Positions 37,526 through 39,629 of a stretch of DNA of 40,639 nucleotides are shown in pieces; the stretch's first letter is position 1; each line of letters opens with the position of its first letter. Source of the stretch: Muribaculaceae bacterium (lineage in GTDB: Bacteria; Bacteroidota; Bacteroidia; Bacteroidales; Muribaculaceae); assembly GCA_017449785.1 (NCBI GenBank), contig JAFTFA010000186.1, positions 1 through 40,639 of the forward strand, written 5' to 3'. A model generated the notes under the pieces. It was not told where the DNA came from. It searched no databases and saw only the letters and a program-made list of their open reading frames with translations. A program made the position numbers and the translations under genes.

Positions 37526-37888
37526 TCACTGCTGCGGCTGGGCACCGTCCTCGCGGGGACGAGCCAGCAGTTCAAAGGTATCTACATAGATTTCGGTAGT
37601 GTAACGCTTGATCTGGTTGCGGTCCTCCCAGGCACGGGTGCGCAGGCGGCCTTCCAGATAGATCTGGGTGCCCTTGCGGATGTAGCGCTCGGCCACCTCG
37701 GCATTCTTGCCCCACATCACGATGTTGTGCCACTCGGTGCGCTCGGGCACCTGAACACCGTTGGCGTTGGTATAAGCGCGGTCGGTAGTAGCCAAAGTGA
37801 ACGAAGCGACGGGCTGATTCTGTGCCACATAACGCACATCGGGGTCCTTGCCCACACGACCCAACAGAATGACTTTATTGACTGACAT
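37526..37888 (-). CDS. ssb: Single-stranded DNA-binding protein, short form
   Basis: 120 residues forming just the OB-fold: MSVNKVILLGRVGKDPDVRYV, SFTLATTDRAYTNANG, TEWHNIVMWGKNAEVAERYIRKGTQIYLEGRL, and YTTEIYVDTFELL. It binds ssDNA during replication, repair or recombination. The C-terminus ends ARPREDGAQPQQ, without the acidic DDDxPF tip through which standard SSB recruits partner proteins. It may therefore be a secondary SSB. It is 66 bases downstream of the argC-like gene on the same strand with no promoter box found, so read-through is possible. Confidence 0.93.
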   Translation of the reverse strand: MSVNKVILLGRVGKDPDVRYVAQNQPVASFTLATTDRAYTNANGVQVPERTEWHNIVMWGKNAEVAERYIRKGTQIYLEGRLRTRAWEDRNQIKRYTTEIYVDTFELLARPREDGAQPQQ

Positions 37889-37954: not shown

Positions 37955-38911
37955 TCAACAACCGGTTCCCTTCAAGGCCAGCCCCACGCGCTCATGCAGG
38001 CCGAACAGCAGGTTCATCGCGTGCACTGCGGTGCCGGCACTGCCCTTGAGCAAGACGTCCATCACGGCATGCACCGTGAGGTCGCCCGTGTGGTCACCCT
38101 TGTCGAGACGGATGAGGCACTTGTTGGTATTCTCGACGTCGGCAGCAACGATGGGACGGTCAACCAGGAAGACGAAGTTGTGGTCGTCGTAGTATTGCTC
38201 ATAGAGCTGACGGACCATCTCGTCGTCAACGCCACACTTGAAGCGTGCCGCCACAGCCAGGGCGCGCCGCTCGGCCAGCCGACTGATGGTCAGCTCGACC
38301 GGCTGGTTGAAACTCGACTGGCACTGCCCCAGCGCCATGACCACCTCGCGCTGCTGCTCCATCGCCCACTCGTCGGCCGTCAGGCCGTCAAGCGTCCTGC
38401 CATCGCTGGCCAAGGCCATCTCGCCCATCGCCACATGCAGGCTCAACGGGCTGTTGAGCAACAGGTTGCGAGCCATCGGCATCAAGGCAAGCAATGCCGC
38501 CGTCGCAGCATTGCCGGGCACGGTCACCCAATCAGTGTCATGGACGAGCACACGCCGTTGCATCTCGCTCAGGCCATATTTCCATGCCACGGCCTCGCCG
38601 TGGTCCAGATTGTGGCTGCCGCTCAGGTCTATCAGCTTCAAGCCATCGGGGACGGGATGCGATGCCATCCATGCCGACACGTCGGCACGACTGCCGCACA
38701 GGTACACCAGATTGACATCGGCCAGCGCCGGTTCATCAGCGACGACGAGGTCACACTCACCGATGATGCCAGGCACAATGCTGTCGAGACGCGTCCCGGC
38801 ATCACAGCCGCCAGTGGCCCACATCAACTCCACGTCGGGGTGGTTGATGAGGATGCGGACGAGTTCGGCGGCACTGAGATGGTCACAACCGACTATACCT
38901 ACTTTAATCAT
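37955..38911 (-). CDS. ArgC-like protein lacking the catalytic cysteine
   Basis: 318 residues from ATG 38911 (MIKVGIVGCDHLSAAELVRIL); another ATG lies six bases upstream. The ArgC framework is present: LINHPDVELMWAT, LKLIDLSGSHNL, PGNAATAALLALMP, and the C-terminal LLKGSAGTAVHAMNLLFGLHERVGL. ArgC reduces N-acetyl-glutamyl-phosphate in arginine synthesis using a cysteine in the motif PGCY; here that residue is Asn134 (PGNAA, codon AAT). The NADP-binding GASGYTG-type loop is also replaced, by GCDHLSA. The gene overlaps the end of argR by eight bases. It is either a pseudo-enzyme with another role or a decayed argC still under an intact frame. I leave the symbol empty because activity is doubtful. 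Confidence 0.85.
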   Translation of the reverse strand: MIKVGIVGCDHLSAAELVRILINHPDVELMWATGGCDAGTRLDSIVPGIIGECDLVVADEPALADVNLVYLCGSRADVSAWMASHPVPDGLKLIDLSGSHNLDHGEAVAWKYGLSEMQRRVLVHDTDWVTVPGNAATAALLALMPMARNLLLNSPLSLHVAMGEMALASDGRTLDGLTADEWAMEQQREVVMALGQCQSSFNQPVELTISRLAERRALAVAARFKCGVDDEMVRQLYEQYYDDHNFVFLVDRPIVAADVENTNKCLIRLDKGDHTGDLTVHAVMDVLLKGSAGTAVHAMNLLFGLHERVGLALKGTGC

Positions 38912-39479
38912 CAGCAACGTCCGGCTGCTGCGGAGCTGTCACGGTAAAGTGGGAATTCTTGGGCAGGAACTGCTCGAACACGGCCCGTGCCTGCTCGTGG
39001 GTCACGCCTTCGGCAAGAATGGCCACGACAGTGTCGGCTCCCGCGATGGTGCCCAGCACCTCGGGGGGACGGCTCATGTCTATATCATAGGCCAAGCCAG
39101 GGGCATAACCGTTGCGCGTCTTGATGACGGCCAGGTTGCCCGAGAACTGCAACGACACCAGGCCCACCTGCTTGGCGGCATGAGTGTCGGTCTGACGCAT
39201 GCTCAGCAGCCTGTCTTGCAGCTGGTTGGTATCGGGAATGATATACATGTAGGTATTGCGATCGGTGGCCACCTTAGAAATCTTCAAGGCCTTCAAGTCG
39301 CGCGACAACGTTGCCTGAGTCACATTGATGTTGTGCTCACGCAGCATGTCGGCCAACTCGCTCTGGCTGCCAATGCAATTTGTCTTGATCAGATCGGTGA
39401 TCAATTGTAAACGGTCACGTTTTCTTTTCACGAGTACTTTCTTTTTTCTTGGTTTCTTGGTTAATGTTGTTGTCTCCAT
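38904..39479 (-). CDS. argR: Arginine repressor
   Basis: 191 residues from ATG 39479 (METTTLTKKPRKKKVLVKRKRDRL); the frame further upstream lies across the promoter. After a basic N-terminal extension of about 20 residues comes the winged HTH (GSQSELADMLREHNINVTQATLSRDLKAL), then the C-terminal hexamerisation and arginine-binding core (NLAVIKTRNGYAPGLAYDI, EVLGTIAGADTVVAILAEG). ArgR represses arginine genes with arginine as co-repressor. It is ~35 residues longer than the typical 156. It is first in an operon with the argC-like gene, and an inverted repeat overlaps the -33 region of its promoter. Confidence 0.94.
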   Translation of the reverse strand: METTTLTKKPRKKKVLVKRKRDRLQLITDLIKTNCIGSQSELADMLREHNINVTQATLSRDLKALKISKVATDRNTYMYIIPDTNQLQDRLLSMRQTDTHAAKQVGLVSLQFSGNLAVIKTRNGYAPGLAYDIDMSRPPEVLGTIAGADTVVAILAEGVTHEQARAVFEQFLPKNSHFTVTAPQQPDVADD

Positions 39480-39510
39480 TGCATATATACTTAAAAATTG
39501 GTTACAGATG

Positions 39511-39539
39511 CAAAGGTAATTACTTTTTTGAGAATTCAA
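39511..39539 (-). promoter_or_regulatory. Promoter candidate for argR
   Basis: On the minus strand TTG (39539-39537) is followed after 18 bases by TACCTTTG (39518-39511). The implied leader is about 25-30 bases. The TTG forms part of one arm of the adjacent inverted repeat. Confidence 0.5.
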
Positions 39540-39556
39540 CACATATATATTGAATT
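39533..39556. promoter_or_regulatory. Inverted repeat overlapping the argR promoter, candidate operator
   Basis: AATTCAA (39533-39539) and TTGAATT (39550-39556) are perfect inverted arms around a 10-base AT-rich spacer. The half-site sequence resembles the TGAAT/ATTCA halves of ARG boxes but in the opposite orientation and spacing. It overlaps the -33 element, as expected for a repressor site. Confidence 0.5.
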
Positions 39557-39629
39557 TTTTCATAAACATTCCACTAACTACTGAATTTAAATAAGCTATT
39601 CATTATAATCAATAGTGTTGCATATCCCC

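Follow-up and report, generated by a model that had tools for sequence, protein, structure and literature searches.

An ArgC homologue without catalytic residues, retained behind argR and elsewhere in the Muribaculaceae

Why do bacteria keep an intact gene for an ArgC homologue in which the active site has been dismantled? The question is raised by contig JAFTFA010000186.1 of a Muribaculaceae bacterium (assembly GCA_017449785.1), of which we analysed 40,639 nucleotides (referred to as the window). At 37955..38911 on its minus strand, on which all features described below are located, it carries an ATG-initiated, intact frame for a 318-residue homologue of ArgC, N-acetyl-gamma-glutamyl-phosphate reductase, directly behind argR. 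We refer to this gene as argC’. We assign a probability of roughly 0.6 to the following explanation: argC’ is an argC with a dismantled active site, whose product likely works without catalysis as an oligomer-forming scaffold or as a regulator that binds a ligand, and which outlasted the loss of arginine synthesis.

Loss of the catalytic elements

The window protein matches Pfam Semialdhyde_dh and Semialdhyde_dhC_1 above their cut-offs and has the ArgC fold. Against NCBIfam TIGR01850 (argC) it scores 127.5 bits over residues 2–313, the curated cut-off being 233.6. In comparison to ArgC proteins (TIGR01850; PDB 1vkn, 2i3g, 8afu) it lacks the catalytic Cys, the HxH and GAG motifs and the canonical nucleotide loop. 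The Cys of the PGC motif is the catalytic residue according to PMC10170137. As proposed in a first-pass annotation of the window, residues 132–134 are P-G-N, with Asn134 (38510..38512) in the column of the catalytic Cys, and the Gly-rich, GxxGYTG-type nucleotide loop is replaced in the alignment by GCDHLSA (residues 8–14, 38870..38890). The frame and the C-terminal ArgC motifs are retained, as also stated there, including the conserved block KGSAGTAVHAMNLLFGL (residues 289–305, 37997..38047). The alignment revealed further losses beyond these, namely of HxH, GAG, the substrate loop after GAG and an R-G pair. HxH (HRH), which binds phosphate and carbonyl, reads MEQ in the window protein, and GAG, which belongs to the substrate channel, reads ALA.

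We surveyed 37 genomes of the genus (G000–G036, G000 being the genome of the window) and found argC’ in 33 of them. None of these copies has the catalytic Cys: the column is occupied by N (12), P (7), D (5), S (3), A (3), G (2) and E (1). Both His residues of HxH are found in none and one His in a single copy; GYT of the nucleotide loop is absent throughout, as is GAG, which is present in 37 of 46 Cys-containing rows. Most altered ArgCs still have the Glu of HxHxxE. Judged from these alignments argC’ is almost certainly dead as an ArgC, and the free variation at the Cys column would speak against a new catalytic residue at this position.

When the average frequency of the most common residue was compared between the genus copies and 37 canonical rows, the largest drops were observed for residues 161–200 (0.37 vs 0.84) and 1–20 (0.65 vs 0.93), and the smallest for residues 236–270 (0.72 vs 0.76) and 101–130 (0.55 vs 0.62). 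Within the stretch YYDDHNF (residues 240–246, 38174..38194) Y240, D243, H244 and F246 are invariant in alignment A1. In each of three groups of altered proteins (52, 9 and 9 rows) V123 and H244 do not vary at all, whereas in 31 canonical rows H244 is found at 71% and no residue exceeds 43% in the V123 column. DDHxF also occurs in canonical ArgC from Parabacteroides and Muribaculaceae records. A nearby alternative cysteine, which the first-pass annotation had named as speaking against a loss of catalysis, was considered as well: C265 of NTNKC is the most conserved Cys and invariant in A1. We rejected it as a substitute nucleophile, since it is absent from 4 of 30 altered loci of the family (L189, L203, L204, L213) and present in canonical, Cys-containing ArgC.

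Retention of argC’ and loss of arginine synthesis in the genus

Retention in 33 of 37 genomes excludes chance. All 33 copies are located on the same strand behind argR, and all frames are intact. The two genes overlap by 8 bases in 11 copies and by 4 bases in 4, and are separated by gaps of 6–37 bases in the other 18. Of the features that the first-pass annotation had singled out, the loss of Cys and the position behind argR are found in 33 of 33 copies, the eight-base overlap is present in the window (ATGATTAA, 38904..38911) and an overlap by 4 or 8 bases in 15 of 33, and Asn itself in 12 of 33. argC’ is absent from G003 and G030, in which the matches are canonical ArgC, and from G008 and G015, which gave no match; G015 has argR with different neighbours and G008 has neither gene. 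A further 21 genomes of the genus were met in the family sample described below, outside this one-by-one survey, and two of them (G149, G212) have an ArgC over the cut-off.

The ratio of nonsynonymous to synonymous substitution rates (dN/dS) of argC’ was 0.09–0.20 by NG86 (values obtained for 12 of 14 pairs) and 0.08–0.25 by YN00 (6 of 14 pairs), in comparison to 0.08 and 0.16 for two pairs of canonical argC (NG86) and 0.015–0.069 for argR (YN00, 12 of 14 pairs); many dS values are high and these ratios therefore rough. Because they are low, the protein is constrained: argC’ is under purifying selection, less strictly than ArgR. It thus shows two features of a pseudoenzyme, homology to an enzyme without its catalytic residues and purifying selection, and neither of those of a pseudogene, a broken frame and neutral substitution. 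It is likely retained for a function.

Most genomes of this genus, whose members are gut bacteria, lack key genes of arginine synthesis. argG was matched in 3 of the 37 genomes (G003, G021, G030), the only ones in which argB also exceeds its cut-off. argH exceeds it in G003 and G021, and in six more genomes argH was matched weakly (E-values between 2e-5 and 4e-4). In the genome of the window (93.84% complete) neither argG nor argH gave a match, and the sole argB is an altered one. A second, Cys-containing argC, as considered in the first-pass annotation, was not found there either; the other TIGR01850 match is an aspartate-semialdehyde dehydrogenase. G003, G021 and G030 carry a cluster of argB, a gene of the ornithine carbamoyltransferase (OTC) type, a gene of the argD type, argC and argG. 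The ArgC of this cluster (of all three genomes in one tree, of G003 and G021 in another) groups with that of G054 from another family, outside the family’s own ArgC, so the canonical cluster was probably regained laterally. G021 holds both a canonical and an altered ArgC, on different contigs.

OTCace_N was matched in 33 of the 37 genomes, and all 20 loci that we opened encode a 330-residue OTC-like protein. In many genomes of the genus this gene is located near an amino-acid-kinase match, which we took for carbamate kinase; in G000 the kinase frame is complete and a contig end truncates that of the OTC-like protein. This gene pair suggests arginine breakdown rather than synthesis.

The genome of the window also encodes a degenerate ArgB-like kinase beside asd (G000:C77 = L066:6972-7742, minus strand; 122.8 bits, cut-off 151.3). 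The HGGG loop and the RRVTD stretch, which we take to be the Gly-rich loop and the site of the substrate Arg in ArgB, read FSGN and RPVVD. The same kinds of change recur in varied form among 21 aligned ArgB-like proteins, full-length matches below the cut-off are present in 28 of the 37 genomes, and dN/dS is 0.04–0.11 (eight pairs, NG86 values); the protein is well conserved. G008 retains the ArgB-like protein without argR and argC’.

Distribution across the family and origin

From the family we drew 247 genomes evenly and applied the TIGR01850 cut-off. ArgC over the cut-off was found in 142, leaving 32 genomes of the genus and 73 outside it. Profile A1 was run on 66 of the latter; not included were G075, G123, G134, G172 and G228, which have stronger matches below the cut-off, and G104 and G107, which have no TIGR01850 match. 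argC’ was matched in 64 of the 66, in seven further genera, eight with that of the window. The 30 best of these 64 loci all lack Cys at the catalytic column.

argR is the same-strand upstream neighbour in 28 of the 64 genomes, with match ends 13–220 bases apart: in 20 of 21 in genus g54, 5 of 5 in g33, 2 of 2 in g53 and 1 of 1 in g26. Including that of the window, argC’ is therefore next to argR in five genera. The arrangement is different elsewhere. In g46 argC’ is present in 12 of 12 searched genomes and never beside argR, which is on another contig in 8 and without a match in 4. In g28 it is present in 22 of 23 searched genomes, all without ArgC over the cut-off, and argR was matched in none of the 23. 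Among five g28 loci with wider flanks, three read gltX-waaA-argC’, in L224 gltX and waaA are separated by one extra gene, and in L218 the argC’ frame, missed by the gene picker, lies directly behind gltX. A locus of g41 (L219) again reads gltX-waaA-argC’. In 14 control genomes with ArgC over the cut-off argR was located about 1.9–2.2 kb upstream in 9, on another contig in 1 and without a match in 4.

Complete operons read argR-GNAT-argG-argC-argD, the gene names being partly assigned from sequence, with gltX or waaA before argR in L117, L122 and L165 and ssb after the operon in L123, L125 and L143. The arrangements argR-argC’-ssb and gltX-waaA-argC’ may thus be remnants of such an operon after deletions around argC. 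We built two ArgC trees, the first with 79 of 100 rows (21 near-duplicates were dropped; L086–L108, also genus copies, were not entered) and the second with 73 of 153. In the second tree the altered copies fall inside the family’s ArgC (support 99), and a single origin of the Cys loss was not rejected (approximately unbiased test, p = 0.26). Since L163, with PGA at the motif, groups with the canonical L151 (support 99), it looks like a separate Cys loss, and several losses are possible. G057 belongs to another family of the order; its ArgC (L085/L043), which lacks the Cys and has diverged strongly, is encoded directly behind an argR with intact GDD. This ArgC also falls inside the family’s ArgC, on a long branch of unsure place, and is possibly of separate origin.

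Some altered ArgCs pass the curated ArgC cut-off and would be taken in annotation to indicate arginine prototrophy; two of them lack the Cys, with Ser in its column in L129 (263 bits) and Ala in L163 (236 bits). In other ArgC copies behind gltX the Cys is kept and GAG and one His are lost (L135, L137, L144, L147, L152, L153, L157, L158, L161); the two of these that were scanned, L135 (238 bits) and L147 (245 bits), pass the cut-off. In another class (L113, L119, L121, L127, L131, L141) Cys is changed to Ala and both His are kept; a tetratricopeptide repeat (TPR) protein and a CstA-like protein follow (Pfam on L119), and argR was not found adjoining. L131, L144 and L152, from NALB metagenome-assembled genomes (MAGs) titled Clostridiales, Staphylococcus and Paenibacillus, carry ArgC genes closely resembling those of Bacteroidales; these records appear to be mistitled or their bins to be mixtures. 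A plasmid search gave 24 records, all below 60% identity; among the best 5 of the 24, two annotated Bacteroidales rows were named argC.

Possible roles of ArgC’

How could argC have outlived its pathway? Ancestral ArgC may already have had a second, non-catalytic role. Yeast Arg5,6, an ArgB-ArgC protein, has a reported second role. argG and other arginine genes would then have been deleted from an operon of the type gltX/waaA-argR-GNAT-argG-argC-argD-ssb, argC being left behind, in some cases together with argR, with drift of the catalytic residues afterwards. The putative function may be carried by residues 236–318, where the constraint is best kept (DDHNF, NTNKC, KG..G.AVH.MNLLFGL). As argC’ is retained without argR in g28, we lean towards a non-catalytic role that is independent of ArgR at its root. 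Where argC’ lies behind argR both proteins are predicted to be co-produced, and ArgC’ may act on arginine control there. With pseudoenzymes kept from biosynthetic pathways argC’ shares a fold without catalysis and a frame under selection; in contrast to them, key genes of the surrounding pathway are gone in most genomes of the genus. If this explanation is correct, pathway loss exposes a second role of a textbook enzyme: across several genera of the family argC, stripped of every catalytic element, is the biosynthetic gene that its operon has retained. We found no literature linking ArgC to pseudoenzymes and ArgR, or arginine biosynthesis to pseudoenzymes and Bacteroidales, and the titles and opening lines of abstracts among the listed matches on arginine biosynthesis or auxotrophy in Muribaculaceae do not treat an altered ArgC.

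Several observations weigh against this explanation. argC’ evolves fast, with 59–74% identity to the 16 nearest genus copies versus 82–96% for ArgR. It is missing from G003, G008, G015 and G030 and from the searched family genomes G281 and G147, and is therefore dispensable; in G003 and G030, both with the canonical cluster, argR is directly before ssb without a trace of argC’. Nine of the 66 listed A1 matches, all in g28, carry a stop flag; the three of these that we read (G276, G195, G142) have open frames of 297–322 residues. Outside the genus pathway loss is deduced from ArgC alone, and most genomes are MAGs, so that gene absences may reflect assembly gaps.

The first-pass annotation had proposed a catalytically dead ArgC homologue coupled to argR, which could act as a sensor or regulator of ArgR or have a new substrate. 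The first part is borne out by the lost residues, purifying selection and adjacency in 33 of 33 genus copies and 28 of 64 other family genomes. As a general function, a dedicated partner that is co-translated with ArgR, binds it and sets how it responds to arginine or to a metabolite related to it is unlikely, and where the two genes are coupled it is a tentative possibility. In its favour, besides adjacency, G008 lacks both genes, and the arginine site of ArgR is changed. According to PMC7248756 and PMC2880562, four studied ArgRs share no stretch longer than two residues apart from GDD, and in E. coli ArgR it is Asp128 that contacts the guanidino group of arginine. The aligned ArgRs of Bacteroides, Parabacteroides and Tannerella have GDD, whereas all 36 ArgRs of the genus read G-A-D; in the window Ala replaces the first Asp of this turn in GTIAGADT (39030..39053). 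This change is not tied to argC’, because GAD or GSD ArgRs also occur with canonical ArgC (L117, L123, L151, L165) and GDD with altered ArgC (G057). G015, G003 and G030 have argR without argC’, and the g28 and g46 genomes keep argC’ without argR or away from it.

A Cys-independent enzyme with new chemistry and a new substrate, for which the conserved VHD and DDHNF could form a new site, appears improbable: the invariance of H244 and V123 in the altered groups and the mostly retained Glu would fit it, but DDHxF is shared with canonical ArgC, the nucleotide loop, GAG and the substrate loop are gone and the Cys column is unconstrained. Similarly improbable is a reading in which ArgC’ and ArgB’, which is just as altered, are what is left, without catalysis, of a former ArgB-ArgC pair. 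The two would now form an arginine-control module in which, alongside an ArgR missing one arginine-contact Asp, the dead enzymes would sense a metabolite in bacteria limited to importing and degrading arginine. We consider it very improbable that argC’ is a relic in decay, preserved temporarily by its place in an operon; the loss of key pathway genes, the fast divergence and the loss from several genomes would agree with decay, but dN/dS, the 33 intact frames and the matches in seven further genera do not. A still-working ArgC in which another residue replaces Cys has next to no probability, even though the fold is kept and no other ArgC was found in its genome, since without argG and argH and with an altered argB there is no pathway for it to serve, HxH and GAG are lost, and C265 is unsuited as shown above.

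The argR frame as listed extends over 38904..39569 and, like ArgR/AhrC repressors, has both Pfam domains along with NCBIfam matches; every ArgR match of the genus and family searches is below the TIGR01529 cut-off. ARG boxes of the E. coli-type consensus gave weak signals that we did not use as evidence, with a shuffle P ≤0.03 upstream of argR in 14 of 34 sequences (0.2 in the window); for the OTC gene the same held for 1 of the 19 usable upstream sequences. A promoter-like element, TTACCTTTGC (39510..39519), resembles what we take to be the Bacteroidetes −7 promoter element, and from its position the likelier argR start would be the ATG at 39479 (191 residues). Downstream of argC’ the neighbouring gene is ssb (Pfam SSB, 37526..37888), a homologue of the gene found after complete operons in L123, L125 and L143.
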